Assembly: GCF_900182935.1 (NCBI RefSeq)
Contig: NZ_FXUE01000002.1
Location: 744,001-808,000, forward strand
Source: Fibrobacter sp. UWB10
GTDB lineage: Bacteria; Fibrobacterota; Fibrobacteria; Fibrobacterales; Fibrobacteraceae
Length of the DNA: 64,000 nt
Direction of reading: 5' to 3'
The notes beneath the pieces were generated by a model. It was not told where the DNA came from. It ran no database searches and saw nothing but the letters and a program-made list of their open reading frames with translations. The translations under genes were made by a program, and so were the position numbers. This document shows, in pieces, positions 30,677 through 50,733 of the stretch; within the stretch, counting starts at the first letter, position 1; each line of letters starts with the position of its first letter.

Positions 30677-30703
30677 GGGAATCACTAACGTGATTCCTTT
30701 TTT
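30677..30703 (+). terminator. GGGAATCAC terminator, copy 2
   Basis: GGGAATCAC, TAAC, GTGATTCC, then TTTTTT; the same hairpin as at 26398-26425, including similar upstream sequence (ATTATCAC-ACTGAT versus ATTGTCAC-GCTGATT). Confidence 0.9.
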
Positions 30704-30769: not shown

Positions 30770-30884
30770 TGTATAGTATTTTTAAATCTACTGATTGAAA
30801 TTGCATAAAAATTGAGAAATTTTTATAAAAATCTTGATTTTGTATAGTATTTTTATTGACTTATCGAAAGTAAAAATATATCTT
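30770..30884 (+). promoter_or_regulatory. promoter and candidate operators of TIGR02147 module 1
   Basis: TTGACT (30856-30861), 17 nt, TATCTT (30879-30884), 7 nt, ATG. The 15-mer TGTATAGTATTTTTA occurs at 30770-30784 and again at 30841-30855 immediately before the -35. The layout matches module 2 (50512-50554), where the boxes read TGTATCATA. Confidence 0.7.
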
Positions 30885-30891
30885 AGTGTAT

Positions 30892-31725
30892 ATGAAATCG
30901 ATACTCGAATATAAGGATTATCGCCTGTATATACAGGATTACTACGACGAACGCAAGCGTTTGGGCGCGTTCTCGTGGCGAGAGTTCTGCAAGAGTGCCG
31001 GCTTTACTTCGCCGAATTTTTTGAAGCTCGTTTGCCTGGGTGAAAGCAGGTTGGGCGCACCGAAAATTGAAAAAGTCGCGAATGCTATGGGGCTTCTCGG
31101 TTACGAAAAAGATTATTTCCGCGAAATGGTAACGTTTTGCAATGCCAAGAAGGATTCCGTCAAAAAGGCCGCTCTGCTTGAAATGCAGAAAATTGCGACG
31201 GAGCACAAAATGCGCGTTATTGACGGTGACGCCTTTCAGTATTATGAATCGTGGAAATACCCTGTAATGAGGGAACTTGCTCCGATGATGCCGGGTGCCA
31301 ACCCGAGTGATATTGCAGAAGAATGCAAAGAGCACGTGTCGGCTGAAGAGGTTCGCGATATCCTGAGTTTTCTGGTCAAGGCCGGGTTCCTGAAGAAGGA
31401 CGGGGACAAGGTCTATTCGCAGACGGAGCAGAACGTTATCGGGTCGAAGGAGGCTCTGCCTATTGCAATCCGTTCCATGCACAAGGAAATGGCGAACATG
31501 GCTGCGCGGGCTGTAGATCGCTATTCCCCAAGCGAACGCTATTTTACGGGGTTGACAGTCGGCGTGACCGAAGAGGCAAGCAAGAGGATTGTCGAAGAAA
31601 TAGACGCTTGTTGCAAGAAGGTGCTCTCCATTGTGAACGAGTATAAGGATTCAGACCAGGTCTGTCGAATCAATTTCCAGTTTTTCCCGTTTACGGACAA
31701 GATTAAGGAGGCGTCCCATGCTTAA
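30892..31725 (+). CDS. TIGR02147 family regulator-like protein (module 1)
   Basis: A 277-residue cytoplasmic protein of the Fibrobacter paralogous family TIGR02147 (DUF4423-like). It opens with the family signature ILEYKDYRLYIQDYYDERKR, followed by an HTH-like segment (FSWREFCKSAGFTSPNFLKLVCLGESRLGAPKIEKVANAMGL), then a mostly helical C-terminal region that includes a wHTH-like stretch (VRDILSFLVKAGFLKKDGDKVYSQ) and ends CRINFQFFPFT. No enzyme motif is seen, so a DNA-binding role is inferred. The last codons encode KEASHA-stop and contain the SD and ATG of the next gene (8-nt overlap, ATGCTTAA). The paralogue at 49665-50504 does the same. The start at 30892 is set by the -10 box. Confidence 0.85.
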   Translation: MKSILEYKDYRLYIQDYYDERKRLGAFSWREFCKSAGFTSPNFLKLVCLGESRLGAPKIEKVANAMGLLGYEKDYFREMVTFCNAKKDSVKKAALLEMQKIATEHKMRVIDGDAFQYYESWKYPVMRELAPMMPGANPSDIAEECKEHVSAEEVRDILSFLVKAGFLKKDGDKVYSQTEQNVIGSKEALPIAIRSMHKEMANMAARAVDRYSPSERYFTGLTVGVTEEASKRIVEEIDACCKKVLSIVNEYKDSDQVCRINFQFFPFTDKIKEASHA

Positions 31726-32293
31726 GAAGTTTGCTCTTGTCTCAGGTTCTCTGTTTTTGATACTTGTGATTGCGTGTTCCGGTGGAGGAACGGTGGATCC
31801 CAATACCTTGGCTGAAAACAGTAACTCGTTGAGTTCGTCGAGCAACGGTCTCTCTGAAACAGAAAACGGGATGGATATCAAGCCGGTAGAAGTGTCTTCG
31901 TCATCTGAGATATCCGATATGATCGATGGAGGTATTGCACATACGAAGGACTTTTCGCTCCAGTGTTTGGACAATGTGGATCCTTTGAGCAATTCGGCAG
32001 AACTTTCGGACGATACAGAGAGGGATTCTGTTGCCAGTCGAAAGGTTGGTGACGACGGTTTTGATACTATCGTTATTCCCCAAATGTACATGTCTTGCGG
32101 AGCTGTTTTTGAACGTTTCGATGTCTATGCATCCGATGGAACTCTCTATGTTGATGTGGTCGAGGCTGCGGATAGCCCGATAACCAATTGTGTTTGCCCG
32201 ACACGAGTGTCTTTCAGAATTGAGCACAACGAGGCGTTCTTCAATACGCAATATCTCGTGTTTGGCAGACAAAAGTTTGTTATTGAAGATTAA
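31718..32293 (+). CDS. lipoprotein with C-x-C module, coupled to TIGR02147 gene
   Basis: A 191-residue exported lipoprotein: signal peptide MLKKFALVSG... with lipobox VIAC, a short Ser-rich linker (about 30-65), then one copy of a roughly 110-residue Cys-patterned domain (FSLQC..., MSCGAVFERFDVY, GTLYVDV, NCVCPTRVSFRIEHNEAFF). The same domain is repeated in the next gene. Family not recognised. Translation is very probably coupled to the upstream regulator: AAGGAGG lies 6 nt before the ATG, which itself overlaps the regulator's stop. Confidence 0.75.
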   Translation: MLKKFALVSGSLFLILVIACSGGGTVDPNTLAENSNSLSSSSNGLSETENGMDIKPVEVSSSSEISDMIDGGIAHTKDFSLQCLDNVDPLSNSAELSDDTERDSVASRKVGDDGFDTIVIPQMYMSCGAVFERFDVYASDGTLYVDVVEAADSPITNCVCPTRVSFRIEHNEAFFNTQYLVFGRQKFVIED

Positions 32294-32317: not shown

Positions 32318-33739
32318 ATGAAAAAGTATCTTGCATGCGCGGCAGCGCTTTCGCTTATGATGGTTGCCTGCGGGGACGATTCGTCTTCGAACGCCAAAGG
32401 CGGCGAAAAGGGAGGAACTCCCGCAGGAAAGGATATCGCACACGCTGGAAATTGCGGCGTCTTTACTCCCTGGGAAGGGGAGGGCGAGGCCTTCGTGATA
32501 GGATCTAAAGATGAAGGCTACCAAGTTCTTCTTCCGAAGATGGAATACGATGTCGAATTGTGCAATGAATGCCTGTACGAACGTTCCGGCGATACCCTGC
32601 ATATCTGGAATTCGGATTCGACGAGTGAGGCTTTGAACTGGATCTGCACTACGGACTTTACGTTCGATATCTCTGATGCAGATGCCGATATCAAGTATTT
32701 CTCGTACGAGAATTCGGTTTTCAAGATTGTGGAAGGCCCTGCTCCGGAAAAGATTTCTTCGGGTATGGTCAATACATCGTCGTCGAGCGAGAATCCGTCT
32801 TCGAGCGGGAATGAGCAATCTTCCTCGAGTGAGTCGATTGAATCGTCCAGTTCACAAGATGTATCGTCCTCAAGTGAACCAGGCTCTTCGTCGAGCGAGA
32901 TTCCGCCGAGTTCTTCTTCTAGGCGTGAATATAACGGTCCTGTACCACTGAAAAGCATTACGGCGACCTGCCAGGAAAAAGTATGGACGAATGAACCGGT
33001 TGTTGATCCCGTGCTGCCTGCGGCGTATCTCAGCATTTCCAACAGCTATGCGCAAATTGACTTGGAGAATGTCAAGTTGAGTTACGCCTGCGATTCCGCT
33101 TTGCAGAAAGCTTTCTTTGATAGCCTGAAAGCGGATAATACCGTGGCGTCGGTTATCGGGGATACGCTCTTTGTGAATTTCCAGCGTTTCGAAGAAAAGG
33201 GGGTGGAATTCAGGTGTGGCTGCACGGCCGATGTGCAATTCACGTTTGACGAAAACTACAACGTCTTCGACTACACGGCGTTCGAAAACAACAGGCCACC
33301 GCTGGAACTGAAGCATAAATTGATAAACCAGCCGGATCCGGGCTATCAGAAGATTTCCAATGCCGATTTGCAGTGCATGGGTAATGCTTTCTCCGAAGAT
33401 CCGATGGTCGATGCCGCTATCCCGCCTGTGGCGCACATGTACTGGGACGGTGATTCAGCGCAGGTTGTCATAGAAAGTATTTCGCTTACTTGCGGGTCGG
33501 TAATCGAAAGCATCGAAACTCAGGTAAAGGACAGTATATTTTATGTGACTCCGCATTACGATACTTCAGCCCCGCTGGCAGATTGCATTTGCAATACAAG
33601 GGTCAGCTTCAACGTGGAGCTTAGAGACCCGTTTACCGAAGCGACCATGCTGGTGTATGACAATGATCTTGGCAACAAAATGCGGCTGATAAAGGAAGTT
33701 ATGCCGTATGACATCCAGTTGAACGCAGGGCAACGTTAA
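32318..33739 (+). CDS. lipoprotein with repeated C-x-C modules
   Basis: A 473-residue exported lipoprotein: MKKYLACAAALSLMMVAC lipobox, then a first, weaker Cys module (FTPWEGEGEAF..., VELCNECLYERSGDTLHIW...WICTTDFTFDI), a Ser/Glu/Pro linker (about 150-210), and two clearer copies (LSYACDSALQ...GDTLFVNF...CGCTADVQFTFD; LTCGSVIES...DSIFYVTP...DCICNTRVSFNVE). The modules align with the one in the preceding 191-residue protein. The start at 32318 was chosen by the SD AGAGGAG 7 nt upstream rather than ATG 32312. It is the third gene of module 1. Probably an outer-membrane or surface sensor/binding protein; the function is not known. Confidence 0.75.
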   Translation: MKKYLACAAALSLMMVACGDDSSSNAKGGEKGGTPAGKDIAHAGNCGVFTPWEGEGEAFVIGSKDEGYQVLLPKMEYDVELCNECLYERSGDTLHIWNSDSTSEALNWICTTDFTFDISDADADIKYFSYENSVFKIVEGPAPEKISSGMVNTSSSSENPSSSGNEQSSSSESIESSSSQDVSSSSEPGSSSSEIPPSSSSRREYNGPVPLKSITATCQEKVWTNEPVVDPVLPAAYLSISNSYAQIDLENVKLSYACDSALQKAFFDSLKADNTVASVIGDTLFVNFQRFEEKGVEFRCGCTADVQFTFDENYNVFDYTAFENNRPPLELKHKLINQPDPGYQKISNADLQCMGNAFSEDPMVDAAIPPVAHMYWDGDSAQVVIESISLTCGSVIESIETQVKDSIFYVTPHYDTSAPLADCICNTRVSFNVELRDPFTEATMLVYDNDLGNKMRLIKEVMPYDIQLNAGQR

Positions 33740-33790
33740 TCTTGGCGACGAGTGCGGTTGATAAAGGAATATTTTTCTATATTTCGGGCC

Positions 33791-34525
33791 ATGAAATACA
33801 CAGACGAAGCAAAACAGAATTTCAAGGCCCTCTCCAATAACCCGTATCCTGGTCGTGGCATTGTGCTCGGCGAAAGCGCCGATGGCAAGTCCTACGTGCA
33901 GGTCTACTGGATTATGGGCCGTAGCGTTAACAGCCGTAACCGCGTTTTCGAAATGGAAGCCAAGACCGGCTTCATGAAGACGAAGGCCTTCGACGAATCC
34001 AAGCTCACCGACCCGCACCTGATTATCTACTACCCGGCTCGCCACACGGCCGACGTGCAGATTATCACCAACGGTGACCAGACCGATACGATTTATAACG
34101 CTATCAAGCTCGGCGGTACTTTCGAAAGCGCTCTCGCTACGCGCCAGTACGAAGACGACGCTCCGAACTTCACACCGCGTATTTCCGGTATTCACTACAA
34201 GAACGCCCAGCCCGCCGTGTACAAGCTCTCCATTCTCAAGAGCCGTAACAATAGCGAAGAAGCTGGTTGCGAACGCATGACGTTTGAATACGAAAAGGCT
34301 CTGCCGGGCCTCGGCCACTTCATCAGCACTTACGAAACCGATGGCAACCCGATTCCGTCTTTCAGCGGTTTCCCGAAACTGATGCCGATTTTTGACAATG
34401 CCGAAGACACGCTCAAGAAGTATTGGGCCGCTCTCGACAAGGACAATAAGGTGTCTCTGATGGTCAAGTGGATTGACAAGAAGACCTTCAAGGCCAAGAC
34501 CTTGATCGTCAATAAAAACAAGTAA
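33791..34525 (+). CDS. purO: IMP cyclohydrolase, archaeal PurO type
   Basis: Closes the ring of FAICAR to IMP in the last purine step. The 244-residue protein begins with the PurO signature NPYPGRGIVLGESADGKSYVQVYWIMGRSVNSRNRVF, then IIYYPARHTADVQIITNGDQTDTI, and ends with the NTN-hydrolase-like strands. PurO is an alternative to the cyclohydrolase half of PurH; it was first defined in archaea but occurs in some bacteria. TATATT ends 7 nt before the ATG. Strong codon bias suggests high expression. The terminator lies inside the converging regulator gene. Confidence 0.88.
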   Translation: MKYTDEAKQNFKALSNNPYPGRGIVLGESADGKSYVQVYWIMGRSVNSRNRVFEMEAKTGFMKTKAFDESKLTDPHLIIYYPARHTADVQIITNGDQTDTIYNAIKLGGTFESALATRQYEDDAPNFTPRISGIHYKNAQPAVYKLSILKSRNNSEEAGCERMTFEYEKALPGLGHFISTYETDGNPIPSFSGFPKLMPIFDNAEDTLKKYWAALDKDNKVSLMVKWIDKKTFKAKTLIVNKNK

Positions 34526-34538
34526 TTATTATTGTCTT

Positions 34539-35930
34539 CTATTTTTCCACCACGTTCCCGAGGATGTGGTGGATTTTTTTTATGCCATCGAATGCCGAGG
34601 GGCTGCTGATATAGTAGAAGATTTGCTCCACCAGCGCATCGGTGTTGAAGTCGTAAGAGGGAATGCGCAGCAGATAGCTTTCCATGGAGTTGTCGAAGGC
34701 AATGTAGGTCGGACCAATATTTGGCTGCGGAATTTCCATGTTGTTTTCTTCGACCATTTCCATAAAGATGCCTGCGACTTCGTCGTTCACGCAAATCCAG
34801 GGCATGTTGTTGCCGTTTTTCGCCTGGAATTCGAGGGCGCGTTCAGCGAGCGTTTTGAGTTTTTCTTTTTCGAGGGTACGCGCCATGATTTCCACGGAAA
34901 GTTTTTCGACTTTCTTGCGGGCAATTTGTTTGTAATCCCAGGGACTTGCGAATTCCGCATCCACGTAGGGGTGCACCACCAGGCCCGATTCTTCGAGGCC
35001 GGTCAAGCGGTCCTTGGACCAGGAACTGTTGTGGTACGGCGAAAAGTATCCGACTTCGGTCACGCCAAGGCCGAGCAGGTAGCGGCCGATTTCTTTGCCG
35101 GGGTTCTTGCCGAAGGTGGAGTTAAAGAATATCCAGTTGTCCTTGCGCAAAAAGCTGCGGGGTACTGCGTCGATGGGGTGTTCCCACCACACGGCCACGG
35201 GGAACTTGGCGTCTGCAAAAAACGTCAGGAGGGGCCTAAAGTTCTGCACCAAAAGCGTCGAAAGCACGGCCCCCACGGCGTTCGGGTGTTCCGAAAGCTT
35301 GCATGGCTTTCCGCTTCGGTCAATGAGTTTGCCCGAGGCATCGTTGATGCCGAACAGGGTCAGCTTGTAATGGTTTTTACCTGCGGTCTTGTACACGAGC
35401 CGCAAAAAATCCAGTTCGCGTTCGCTTTCGGCGCTGAATCCGCCCCAGCTGTTGCAGCGCGTCACGAAGATGAGTTCGCTGAGCGGCGCGTCGTCTTTCT
35501 TTTGCTGTTTGCGGTAAAAGAGGTACTGGCGGCCTTCTTTTTTCAGGATGTTGCGAGCCACCTTTTCTTCCAAGAACTTGCGGAGCGTGCCCTGCGACAC
35601 GTTGTAGCGGGCAGAAAGTTCCTTGGAAAGTGGAAGCGGTTGCGAGGGCTTCAGATAGCCTTGCGCAAAGTCGCGTTCGAAAGCCTTGGCGAGCTTTTCG
35701 GAAACCGTCTCGTGAATAAAGGGAACCTTGGTCCGTAGGGGAGACGTGCCCCAGAAACAGCCTTTACCCTGAATCTTGCAAATTTTTCCGTTGGATTCCA
35801 GCTCGGCAAGCGCAGCCTGCACTGTGCCCGACGAAGCGCCGAAACTCTTGATCATGGAACGCACCGACGGGAGTCGGTCGCCCTCGGCGAGGTTCATGTC
35901 GAGCAAAGCCTTGATAATCCGCTGTTTCAT
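34539..35930 (-). CDS. GntR-type regulator with two HTH segments and LacI-like sensor domain
   Basis: A 463-residue transcription factor. Residues about 1-68 are a GntR winged helix (GDRLPSVRSMIKSFGASSGTVQAALAELESNGKICKIQGKGCF). Residues about 72-145 form a second GntR-like winged helix (SEKLAKAFERDFAQGYLKPSQPLPLSKELSARYNVSQGTLRKFLEE...ILKKEGRQYLFY). The rest resembles a periplasmic-binding-protein/LacI effector domain (ELIFVTRCNSWGG, GAVLSTLLVQNF, VTEVGYFSPYHNSSWSKDRLTGLEESGL, ICVNDEVAGIFMEMVEENN). It probably senses a sugar or other small ligand; no target can be named. Two adjacent HTHs in one chain are unusual for GntR proteins. Confidence 0.82.
   Translation of the reverse strand: MKQRIIKALLDMNLAEGDRLPSVRSMIKSFGASSGTVQAALAELESNGKICKIQGKGCFWGTSPLRTKVPFIHETVSEKLAKAFERDFAQGYLKPSQPLPLSKELSARYNVSQGTLRKFLEEKVARNILKKEGRQYLFYRKQQKKDDAPLSELIFVTRCNSWGGFSAESERELDFLRLVYKTAGKNHYKLTLFGINDASGKLIDRSGKPCKLSEHPNAVGAVLSTLLVQNFRPLLTFFADAKFPVAVWWEHPIDAVPRSFLRKDNWIFFNSTFGKNPGKEIGRYLLGLGVTEVGYFSPYHNSSWSKDRLTGLEESGLVVHPYVDAEFASPWDYKQIARKKVEKLSVEIMARTLEKEKLKTLAERALEFQAKNGNNMPWICVNDEVAGIFMEMVEENNMEIPQPNIGPTYIAFDNSMESYLLRIPSYDFNTDALVEQIFYYISSPSAFDGIKKIHHILGNVVEK
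34547..34580 (+). terminator. purO terminator inside the 3' end of the GntR gene
   Basis: CCACCAC (34547-34553) pairs with GTGGTGG (34566-34572), followed by ATTTTTTTT. The hairpin is built from the last codons of the converging gene. Confidence 0.85.
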
Positions 35931-47861: not shown

Positions 47862-48353
47862 TTACATCTGAGCACTTTTAGCATAGAATGTTTCGGGGAA
47901 CGCCTTGGCGGCGCAATGATTGCACAACATGCGAAGCCTGGTTTCGGCTACAGATGTCACGCGGATCTGCGCACCGCAGTCGGCGCACTTTGCCAGGAAC
48001 ACCACGGAAAGCGGAGTGGTCGCCACGTTGGCAGCCTTGCCCTCGCCCACCTTGTGTACCGTATTGCGGAATATGATTTCGCCATCGGCATTCTGGATGA
48101 TTTCGCGCGTGATGCAGCAATCAAAACTGCGTCCACGGCGGTTACGCATGCGCATGTTGAAGCTAGCGCTCACGGTGTCATTCCGGAATGCGTTCCAGTC
48201 GCTTGCGTAGCGGTACAGGTCCGTGACGTAATGCCACTGCAGTTCCGATGGCTCGAAACCGAACATGCGGCAGAATCGTCTGTTTCCGCTGAGCAGACGG
48301 CCATGTTGGTTGACCTCAAAGTAGGCCAATTCGATAGAGTTCTCTGTCATCAT
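47862..48353 (-). CDS. PAS-domain protein with C-terminal zinc-ribbon-like motif
   Basis: A 163-residue soluble protein. Residues about 5-105 form a PAS domain (IELAYFEVNQHGRLLSGNRRFCRMFGFEPSELQ...RNRRGRSFDCCITREIIQNADGEIIFRNTV). Residues about 118-155 hold CADC-x(18)-CNHC (CADCGAQIRV...RMLCNHCAAKAFPE), a likely structural zinc site. No catalytic output domain is present, so it may sense a ligand or redox state and act by protein or DNA contact. It is the third gene of module 2, with a 4-nt ATGA overlap with the LamG lipoprotein gene (48350-48353). Confidence 0.7.
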   Translation of the reverse strand: MMTENSIELAYFEVNQHGRLLSGNRRFCRMFGFEPSELQWHYVTDLYRYASDWNAFRNDTVSASFNMRMRNRRGRSFDCCITREIIQNADGEIIFRNTVHKVGEGKAANVATTPLSVVFLAKCADCGAQIRVTSVAETRLRMLCNHCAAKAFPETFYAKSAQM

Positions 48354-49672
48354 TGTGCGCCTCCTTTTAGATAGTGCCGGTACAAGACATCGGCAGAACT
48401 GATCGCTTTATTCCCCAATCGCGCATCTATAATAGAGATATCCCAATCCTTGTCGCCGAATATGAACGGCGTTTCGATAATGTCGTCTTCAGTAATGTAG
48501 TTGATGTCTCCAATCTTGGTGAGTGTCTGTTCGGCAATCAAGAAGCCTTCCATATAAAGCATCACATGCTTTCCGTCCCAGACGCCAGTCACTGTAATTT
48601 CTTTTCCTGCTTCAAGAGTCGCCGAAGATACAACAGCCTTGTCGTAGCAAGAAGTGTATTCAAATCCGTTTCCGATAAAGAAGGACAGAGCCGGTTGGAT
48701 AACATGGCATGCCGACCTTGTAATGGCAATGTTGAACAATCCCTTCTTGCCGAAAATATTCTTGCTGTAGTAGTAACTTTCCGGGAATGAATTGACTTTG
48801 AACGTCACTTCGAATGTCAGTTCTTCAAGATTTTTAGCAAAGACAAGCGTGTCTTGTACAATCGATTCCATTGCAGGAACATTGCTGCCTTCCCAGCTAT
48901 ATACAATACCGTAATCCAATTCGTGCGGCAATTCGACCGTAATCTCTTTTTCGCCGCCTTTGTCCGTAGGAATGGTGTCTTTCGGTTCGTCGCAACCTGG
49001 TTCAGGCTCAATCGGATCTGGATCCGGGCTCGGAGTGCATCCGATTACATCGGGCATCTCGACTGTTTGAACCGGAGGTGCAATCAAGTCATCTGCATCG
49101 ACGTTGCCTGCCAAATCTGTAGGAACAGGCCCCAACACATATGTGGATGTAGAATCGCGTTGGATAAAGTATGATGTTTCAGAAACAGATCCGTTACCCA
49201 CCGTTTTTAAGACGAAAGAGTACGTTCCGTCGGGCAAGTCCTTAATTTCAAATGCTCCATTTGCGCCGGATTCAATGTGTATTACGGAATCCTTCACAGA
49301 AAGATCCATAGAGGCATTCTTAGAACCATTGTTGATCACGTACAGTTTAAGAGTCCTCTGTTCAAGATGAGGAATGTCATCTTGTCGCGATGGATCCGGA
49401 ACGACATAAACAGGGTCGGTTCTAACCACTGTATCGACAAGATCGACACCGCCCGGAGCAATACCTGTGGGCTCCCCAGTAACGGGGGCGGGATCATTTC
49501 CAGCCGGAAGGTTGGTTTGAGGATCCGTAGAATTGTCTTCTTCGCTTGTACCAGCAACGGTATTTGTTTCTTCGTCTACGCCGCCTGCCCAGAAAATACC
49601 GCATGCAGACATAGAGAATGCGACAGAAGCAAAAGTCCAAAGACGGAGGCCATTTTTAAATTGCTTAAGCAT
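48350..49672 (-). CDS. lipoprotein with LamG-like domain, coupled to TIGR02147 gene
   Basis: A 440-residue exported lipoprotein: signal peptide with lipobox SMSAC (Cys about 24), an acidic Pro/Asp/Thr-rich linker (to about 90), a carboxypeptidase-regulatory-like beta domain (LKLYVINNGSKNASMDLSV...GANGAFEIKDLPDGTYSFVLKT), a second linker with Pro/Asp/Cys, and a C-terminal LamG/concanavalin-like sandwich (LTFEVTFKVNSFPESYYYSKNIFGKKGLFNIAI...VTGVWDGKHVMLYMEGFLIAEQTL...DISIIDARLGNKAI). LamG domains often bind glycans. The ATG lies inside the end of the regulator gene (ATGCTTAA overlap) with AAGGAGG 6 nt upstream, as in module 1. Confidence 0.8.
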   Translation of the reverse strand: MLKQFKNGLRLWTFASVAFSMSACGIFWAGGVDEETNTVAGTSEEDNSTDPQTNLPAGNDPAPVTGEPTGIAPGGVDLVDTVVRTDPVYVVPDPSRQDDIPHLEQRTLKLYVINNGSKNASMDLSVKDSVIHIESGANGAFEIKDLPDGTYSFVLKTVGNGSVSETSYFIQRDSTSTYVLGPVPTDLAGNVDADDLIAPPVQTVEMPDVIGCTPSPDPDPIEPEPGCDEPKDTIPTDKGGEKEITVELPHELDYGIVYSWEGSNVPAMESIVQDTLVFAKNLEELTFEVTFKVNSFPESYYYSKNIFGKKGLFNIAITRSACHVIQPALSFFIGNGFEYTSCYDKAVVSSATLEAGKEITVTGVWDGKHVMLYMEGFLIAEQTLTKIGDINYITEDDIIETPFIFGDKDWDISIIDARLGNKAISSADVLYRHYLKGGAQ

Positions 49673-50504
49673 GGTGTTCCTCCTTGGGCAATGTGTTGGT
49701 CAAGGGGAACAACTGAATGTTGAGCCTGTAAACGCGTTCTTCGCCAGAATCTTCCATCACGATCGAGCTGATACGACGGCGGAATTCGGCGATTTCTTTA
49801 GTGATTTTCTCGAAAGCATTATCGGAAATGCCAATTGTAAGGCCCGAAATGTCTCGTTCATTAATAGGAACTTGGTCAAGGCTTTGAACGCCGAGCTCGC
49901 CCATCTGGCGGTGCATTTCACGAATGGCGAGCGAGGCGACATCGAGACTGCCCGTAGTCACGGAACGGCTGCTCTGGCTGTAACGGCCCTGCTCGTCTTT
50001 TTCGAGGAATCCGTTCTTTTCCAGAAGCTTCAAGGAATTCTTGACATTTGCAGCATCGCTATCAAAGACGAGCTCCCCCGCCATTTGGGCGGGTGTCGCG
50101 CCATTCAGGCGCGGGGCCATTTCGCGGAGAACCGGATTCAGCCAGCTGCCATAATAGTCGTACTGGTCTTCGCCCACAAGCGCAAATGCGTTTTCGTTGG
50201 CAATTTTGCGCAGTTCAGCAAAAATCTTTTTCTTTGTAGCAGAAGATTTTTCCTGATTGAAGGCCACTAATTGCCTAAAGTACTGCAAGTCAACACCGAC
50301 AAGGCCCATGGCAGAAGCGACGCGTTCGACACCCGCTTCGCTCAAGTTAGCCTTGCTGTCGCAAACAAGCTTCAAAAACACCGGCGAGGAATACCCGGCA
50401 GCCTTCGCGAAATCACGCCACGTAAAACCGTTGCGCTCCTTGCGCTCGGCATAGTAGTCGCGAATATAGACGCGATAGCTGGTGTATTCCATTACGGGTT
50501 TCAT
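49665..50504 (-). CDS. TIGR02147 family regulator-like protein (module 2)
   Basis: A 279-residue paralogue of the protein at 30892-31725. Signature MEYTSYRVYIRDYYAERKER, HTH-like FTWRDFAKAAGYSSPVFLKLVCDSKANLSEAGVERVASAMGL, wHTH-like VKNSLKLLEKNGFLEKDEQGRYSQ, and C-terminal VYRLNIQLFPLT. Identity to the paralogue is moderate and runs over the full length. The last codons (KEEHHA-stop) encode the SD and ATG of the next gene, exactly as in module 1. The start at 50504 was chosen because TATATT ends 7 nt upstream, although an ATG 17 codons earlier exists beyond the promoter. Inferred role: transcriptional regulator, perhaps of its own operon. Confidence 0.85.
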   Translation of the reverse strand: MKPVMEYTSYRVYIRDYYAERKERNGFTWRDFAKAAGYSSPVFLKLVCDSKANLSEAGVERVASAMGLVGVDLQYFRQLVAFNQEKSSATKKKIFAELRKIANENAFALVGEDQYDYYGSWLNPVLREMAPRLNGATPAQMAGELVFDSDAANVKNSLKLLEKNGFLEKDEQGRYSQSSRSVTTGSLDVASLAIREMHRQMGELGVQSLDQVPINERDISGLTIGISDNAFEKITKEIAEFRRRISSIVMEDSGEERVYRLNIQLFPLTNTLPKEEHHA

Positions 50505-50511
50505 GTTCTTG

Positions 50512-50733
50512 AATATATAATCTTTTCTTAACAAAGTCAATAACCTATGATACAAAAATTCAATTTTTTATTAAAAAATCGTGTAAATGGCGTTTTTTAC
50601 CCAATTTTCAACGATAAATTATGATACAAGCATGCAAAAAAGATTGATACAAGTCAACGAAATTGCGTTTTTTCGCCGAATTTCCAAAAAAAATGCCCCC
50701 GGACATCATCCGAGGGCAAAATCTTGTATCATA
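50512..50733 (-). promoter_or_regulatory. promoter and TGTATCATA boxes of TIGR02147 module 2
   Basis: On the minus strand TTGACT (50540-50535), 17 nt, TATATT (50517-50512), 7 nt, ATG. The box TGTATCATA occurs at 50554-50546 (just upstream of the -35), at 50628-50620, and inverted at 50725-50733, with a variant TGTATCAAT at 50651-50643. The layout equals module 1. Confidence 0.7.
50684..50718 (-). terminator. terminator of the tandem GGDEF operon
   Basis: On the minus strand TGCCCTCGG (50718-50710) pairs with CCGGGGGCA (50702-50694; one mismatch), followed by TTTTTTTT. It lies between the GGDEF operon and module 2, both on this strand. Confidence 0.8.

Follow-up and report, generated by a model that had tools for sequence, protein, structure and literature searches.

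Coupled TIGR02147 regulator and lipoprotein genes in Fibrobacter sp. UWB10 point to an undescribed many-copy system linking gene control to the cell surface

The window, that is, the whole stretch of 64,000 nucleotides of Fibrobacter sp. UWB10 analysed here, holds two modules in which the gene of a TIGR02147 regulator overlaps that of a lipoprotein. The features of module 1 and of its surroundings are:

30677-30698, plus strand: intrinsic-terminator-like hairpin of the preceding unit, from a consensus scan (7 found against 4.5 expected in shuffles, weak alone)
30838-30849, plus strand: operator-like element TTTTGTATAGTA, just 5' of the -35, picked by eye
30856-30884, plus strand: inferred sigma-70-like promoter TTGACT-17-TATCTT (scan with 6 found against 5.3 expected in shuffles)
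30892-31725, plus strand: module 1 regulator, TIGR02147/DUF4423, ATG at 30892 and TAA at 31723-31725
31705-31725, plus strand: coupling cassette AAGGAGG-N6-ATGCTTAA, with SD, start codon and 8-nt overlap within the last codons of the regulator
31718-32293, plus strand: partner lipoprotein 1, 191 aa, ATG at 31718, lipobox ending at Cys20
31781-31816, plus strand: motif of lipoprotein 1, GGGTVDPNTLAE, residues 22-33, a degenerate form of AGGTIDPNxxAE
31937-32287, plus strand: C-terminal domain of lipoprotein 1, predicted beta-rich, with invariant C127, C158 and C160
32312-33739, plus strand: next lipoprotein gene of the apparent operon, 18 nt beyond lipoprotein 1, without the motif
33752-34525, plus strand: IMP cyclohydrolase-like gene, the last gene ahead of the terminator
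34546-34573, plus strand: terminator-like hairpin of 12 pairs followed by T8, from a consensus scan

Those of module 2 are:

48350-49672, minus strand: partner lipoprotein of 440 aa, in which LamG-like and carboxypeptidase-regulatory-like stretches score below the Pfam cut-off
49550-49588, minus strand: motif of this lipoprotein, AGGVDEETNTVAG, residues 29-41, recognised by eye
49665-49685, minus strand: copy of the cassette, arranged as in module 1
49665-50504, minus strand: module 2 regulator, TIGR02147, by profile match
50546-50557, minus strand: TTTTGTATCATA element 5' of the regulator, by motif match

Read directly from the sequence, AAGGAGG in module 1 occupies 31705-31711 and is followed by 6 nt and the ATG at 31718, and the overlap ATGCTTAA covers 31718-31725. 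The sequence-only reading from which this work started had the coordinates, the SD spacing and the 8-nt overlap exactly right, and the paralogous locus that it had placed at 49665-49685 does show the same layout, on the minus strand. A search of 80 Fibrobacter genomes with the 15 specified bases of the cassette returned 30 occurrences, compared with 0 for the reversed pattern used as control, and 28 of the 30 are joints between a TIGR02147 gene and a lipoprotein gene. The cassette is not due to chance. Because it is present in only 21 of the 80 genomes, it identifies near paralogues of the window's two modules and not the whole system, and as a universal signature the exact cassette was rejected; it is a subfamily trait, and elsewhere the overlap is mostly ATGA (-4). 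The conservation asked about in the sequence-only reading thus holds at regulator/lipoprotein joints, but only within this subfamily.

Both window regulators match TIGR02147 (Fsuc_second) well above its cut-off of 50 bits, with E 4.7e-85 and 285 bits for module 1 and E 2.9e-82 and 276 bits for module 2, and both contain DUF4423 (88 and 117 bits, cut-off 30). In the AF2 model of the module 1 regulator (pLDDT 85), a Cro/XRE-like HTH at residues 8-89 is followed by a winged helix at 108-184 and by C-terminal helices. The first part gives Z up to 8.7 to Cro/XRE domains, with P22 c2, HigA and DdrO at Z of about 7-8, and the second gives Z up to 7.9 to ArsR/MarR-type winged helices (range about 6.5-8), while a Foldseek search with the model gave no match at E<=0.001. 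A double-HTH fold is likely on the basis of this model. No transmembrane stretch was found in any of the 28 paralogues of the genome, the maximum hydropathy over 19 residues being 1.43. An anti-phage defence system was rejected, since PADLOC gave no defence-family match for five window proteins.

The predicted promoter of module 1 ends 7 nt before the regulator ATG, and a similar layout in several paralogues suggests that the regulator mRNA may be leaderless in these cases; other paralogues carry an SD ahead of the regulator. Elements resembling TTTTGTATCATA are found near -54 in close paralogues. With at most 2 mismatches, the upstream element occurs in 10 of the 28 regulator upstream regions, compared with a Markov mean of 0.9 and a maximum of 5 in 300 draws; the element was picked by eye, and only those 10 regions show it clearly. 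It is a possible, putative operator. The promoter-proximal TTTTGTATCATA-like element is accompanied by -35 and -10 hexamers in the window (30838-30884) and upstream of L013, L017, L020, L022 and L023, the hexamers ending in several cases a few nt ahead of the ATG, and upstream of module 2 two such elements lie in opposite orientation about 165 nt apart (50546-50557, minus strand, and 50722-50733, plus strand).

At its 3' side, module 1 is probably co-transcribed with the IMP cyclohydrolase-like gene, and the hairpin at 34546-34573 is the probable end of the transcription unit. A distant copy of the C-terminal domain of lipoprotein 1 (33299-33658, 25% identity, E 1.7e-9) is present in the gene that follows, and runs of lipoproteins in related species contain the domain as well, so that module 1 apparently opens a short lipoprotein operon, whose probable end is behind the IMP cyclohydrolase-like gene. 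A Foldseek search with the domain returned nothing at E<=0.001, nothing in the PDB resembled it clearly, and its window copy matches no Pfam or NCBIfam family. In Fibrobacter species, a beta-rich domain of about 110 residues with three invariant Cys repeats in consecutive lipoprotein genes (L286-L313).

The genome contains 28 TIGR02147 genes, of which 0 are interrupted, and for 27 of them the next gene, in the same orientation, encodes a lipoprotein and starts between -17 and +26 nt from the regulator stop. The single exception, L010, has a divergent lipoprotein of the same kind (L038:7740-9371), with VAGNSAETGSPEL and a LamG domain. A closely coupled lipoprotein, starting within -40 to +15 nt, follows 0 of 246 other genes in 334 kb sampled from the same genome with a simple ORF caller, and a lipoprotein at any distance is next for 13 of the 246. 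All 27 downstream partners have a lipobox-like Cys and are predicted to be lipidated and surface-located. Two tandem arrays of three pairs each, near C1:640-647 kb and C1:722-729 kb, indicate that the pair duplicates as a unit. The genes around the pairs are mixed, some being CAZymes and some housekeeping genes, and a conserved CAZyme neighbourhood was rejected, the surroundings differing between pairs. Single pairs adjoin a pectinesterase and a pectate lyase (L034:673-4522), a GH26 with CBM35 (L048:2242-3888) and a GH43 with CBM6 (L029:6065-8380), which are candidate targets.

The pairing extends across the phylum. Of 121 Fibrobacterota genomes, 111 have TIGR02147 (77 of the 83 of high quality), with up to 55-88 first-look candidates per genome in some of them, and it was absent from all 14 control genomes. 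Among the 56 loci of relatives that formed a first set, all regulators have a close partner except L099, which lies at a contig end, L104, which is partnerless, and L095, whose partner is 565 nt away. Of 40 further regulators, a second set drawn from distant families, 38 have a lipoprotein or lipoprotein-like gene next; the exceptions are L186 and L191, and in the genome of L186 a motif search gave a lipoprotein with the motif at the same place, 112 nt past the stop of a regulator (L232). When the pairs of the genome itself and of the second set are taken together, 62 of 65 start within -20 to +15 nt and 41 overlap, and the commonest offset outside the genome itself is -4 (ATGA). The proposal of a selected partnership between a cytoplasmic HTH protein and an envelope lipoprotein is thus strongly supported (27/28 in the genome itself and 38/40 in the distant set, against 0/246 controls). 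Most TIGR02147 genes do have a lipoprotein gene next to them, and the overlap is not unique to the two window loci.

The partner lipoproteins share a motif, roughly AGG(S/T)(E/D)TxN, just after the lipid-bearing Cys. The shared segment lies some 1-12 residues from this Cys and takes forms such as VAGTVTDTGNTIA, AGGTEAESTIA, AGATSETTNGIAG, AGIEIGNP and AGGTIDPNTVAE. In module 2 the Cys is followed by WAGGVDEETNTVAG, and GGGTVDPNTLAE of lipoprotein 1 is a worn form of the VAGGTIDPNTVAE of its close relatives. The two window partners had been described as unrelated, which is wrong at the N-terminus, where module 2 shows this diagnostic motif by eye and module 1 the worn form of it. The region just past the lipidated Cys is usually a variable linker; among 23 orthologues, no other stretch of ten residues in the lipoprotein is conserved as well as the motif. 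A motif profile built from 44 loci outside this genome scored the 28 partners of the genome over 19 other lipoproteins with a Mann-Whitney p of 7e-7, a value that is somewhat favourable because the training set holds orthologues of some of these partners; 16 of the 28 lie above the best control lipoprotein and 12 do not. The window copies score low (1.6 for module 2 and 0.0 for module 1); by eye the motif is plain in module 2 and in relatives of module 1.

The reciprocal search with the motif only is a stronger test than this p-value. With alignment A3, 30 loci were fetched from six distant genomes, and in 28 of these a same-strand TIGR02147 gene lies immediately upstream, two of the 28 being judged by regulator match alone. 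In the genome itself the above-noise sites are all regulator-linked, but these are the training rows of A3. In 7 Fibrobacterota genomes that lack TIGR02147, no match better than E 0.14 was obtained. The motif predicts which lipoproteins belong to the TIGR02147 system, and its likeness between loci tracks that of the regulators (Mantel rho 0.29, p 5e-4).

Beyond the motif the partner bodies differ, and include CBM_4_9, pectate lyase, LamG, CarboxypepD_reg repeats, lectin, beta-helix and FISUMP. The FISUMP (TIGR02145) domain, which relates 4 of the 27 partners in the genome to known FISUMP lipoproteins, was found in neither of the two window partners. In the proteome of Fibrobacter succinogenes, four lipoproteins with a "carboxypeptidase regulatory-like domain" are listed under peptidoglycan biogenesis and are scarcer on cellulose than on glucose (PMC6851124). 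Judged by domain, these four could be candidate partners of the TIGR02147 system.

Outside Fibrobacterota, B. bacteriovorus has 16 TIGR02147 matches, and in Bdellovibrio the gene after TIGR02147 usually encodes an exported protein, often with a -4 overlap and mostly not a lipoprotein. The system had been called typical of Fibrobacter; it is indeed present there, but it spans Fibrobacterota, and in Bdellovibrio too the regulators are coupled to exported proteins. Two lipoproteins of Bdellovibrionota start with CQxKSENTTTGNP, which recalls the IEIGNP type of Fibrobacter, and many non-lipidated partners have a GNGG-like segment after the signal peptide. N-termini of the GNGG/GNP type are found in 9 of 14 partners in six genomes, and in B. 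bacteriovorus in 2 of 9 partners compared with 3 of 111 other exported proteins. An extension of the motif to Bdellovibrio was rejected, as these N-termini are only a trend with weak statistics and the likeness rests on few residues. GNGG or TTGNP after the signal peptide was noted in the TIGR02147-coupled exported proteins of L131, L132, L134, L135, L137, L140, L148, L151 and L153; VIGNGG has no mention in the literature searched. At three loci of Bdellovibrionota (L146, L152 and L162) a lipoprotein gene that converges on the regulator and encodes a GGGN-like segment ends at about the regulator stop.

The computation itself shows that the genes pair, with what geometry they are coupled, and that the partners share a motif which co-occurs with the regulator family; autoregulation, surface display, substrate sensing and a common factor are what we infer. 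The explanation that we favour, with a confidence a little above even, is a many-copy module that consists of an autoregulated double-HTH regulator and a surface lipoprotein that binds substrates and bears a recognition tag dedicated to the system. The soluble two-HTH regulator would most likely control its own operon from the adjacent promoter, and the lipoprotein gene would be translationally coupled to that of the regulator. The lipoprotein would probably be displayed at the cell surface, where its body, which may swap freely between copies, would bind plant or other polymers. The segment after the lipidated Cys would mark membership of the system and would probably be read by a factor common to all copies, acting in sorting, processing or signal relay; since the motif differs little between many of the copies in a cell, a shared reader is preferred over each regulator reading its own. 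As the neighbouring genes are mixed, carbohydrate sensing is not proven. Within the window, the worn motif of lipoprotein 1 (score about 0) and its domain without a fold match speak against this explanation, as do the 12 partners that the profile places no higher than the best control and the eye-picked operator element. The signalling or surface-variation role proposed in the sequence-only reading is a conjecture.

A further step, which we put forward tentatively as one possible outcome, is a new kind of signalling from envelope to genes, in which soluble double-HTH regulators throughout the phylum work with obligate surface lipoprotein sensors whose segment next to the lipid anchor passes on their state via a shared relay, the pair itself operating without a sigma factor, kinase or transmembrane partner. 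FecIR-type cell-surface signalling and the ECF sigma/anti-sigma systems of polysaccharide degraders also have many paralogous pairs of a gene regulator and a surface substrate-binding protein. The modules described here differ in having no sigma factor and no transmembrane anti-sigma, and instead a soluble HTH regulator and a lipoprotein; no transmembrane (anti-sigma) relay gene accompanies the window module, and no match to a sigma or anti-sigma family was found.

The pairs may also be plain regulator-target pairs, in which the regulator answers a cytoplasmic ligand and controls the adjacent lipoprotein, and the motif is a sorting signal with no feedback. A regulator adjoining its own target is common, and some pairs adjoin CAZyme genes. 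The position of the motif is moreover that of lipoprotein sorting signals in other phyla, such as the Bacteroidetes lipoprotein export signal, which is a short motif directly after the lipidated Cys on surface lipoproteins in general, whereas the Fibrobacterota motif is limited to TIGR02147 partners. A general sorting signal would be expected on other surface lipoproteins; it is not on the 19 controls, nothing better than the E value above was seen in the regulator-less genomes, and almost all motif loci are regulator-linked. The motif as a general sorting signal is therefore disfavoured, and we regard plain pairs as a rather unlikely account.

Alternatively, the regulator could bind the N-terminal segment of its own new preprolipoprotein and be released or activated on export. 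In its favour are translational coupling, by which the two proteins are made in the same place, the motif, which emerges before the rest of the mature protein, the solubility of the regulator, and the Bdellovibrio partners, which are exported yet mostly not lipoproteins. The Mantel correlation between motif and regulator also fits, but is expected from joint inheritance alone, and a near-identical motif in many paralogues would not insulate 28 pairs from each other, so that such export-coupled sensing appears improbable. RRNPP regulators, for example PrgX/cCF10, likewise combine an HTH regulator with a lipoprotein-derived pheromone, but there the signal peptide is the pheromone, whereas the conserved part here lies past the lipidated Cys; the C-terminal TPR array is not evident in the predicted model of the regulator, a missing structural match that is no proof. 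That the copies are alternately switched lipoprotein coats, as in surface-antigen variation, would suit the many copies with exchangeable ectodomains and the tandem regulator-lipoprotein arrays, but is very improbable, as every lipoprotein comes with a regulator and an apparent promoter of its own and an unsystematic look noticed no invertible promoter or shared expression site.

TIGR02147 has no mention in the literature searched, where DUF4423 turns up in a single table; no function is attached to the family, and neither its obligate lipoprotein partner nor the motif is described there. Fibrobacter is a leading rumen cellulose degrader, and to our knowledge its substrate sensing is poorly known. 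Our favoured reading would give TIGR02147, a family without an assigned function, a testable role, and the motif provides a sequence tag that predicts the member lipoproteins. With 28 pairs in this genome and about 50-90 candidate regulators in some relatives, the system would amount to a major layer of regulation in the phylum.
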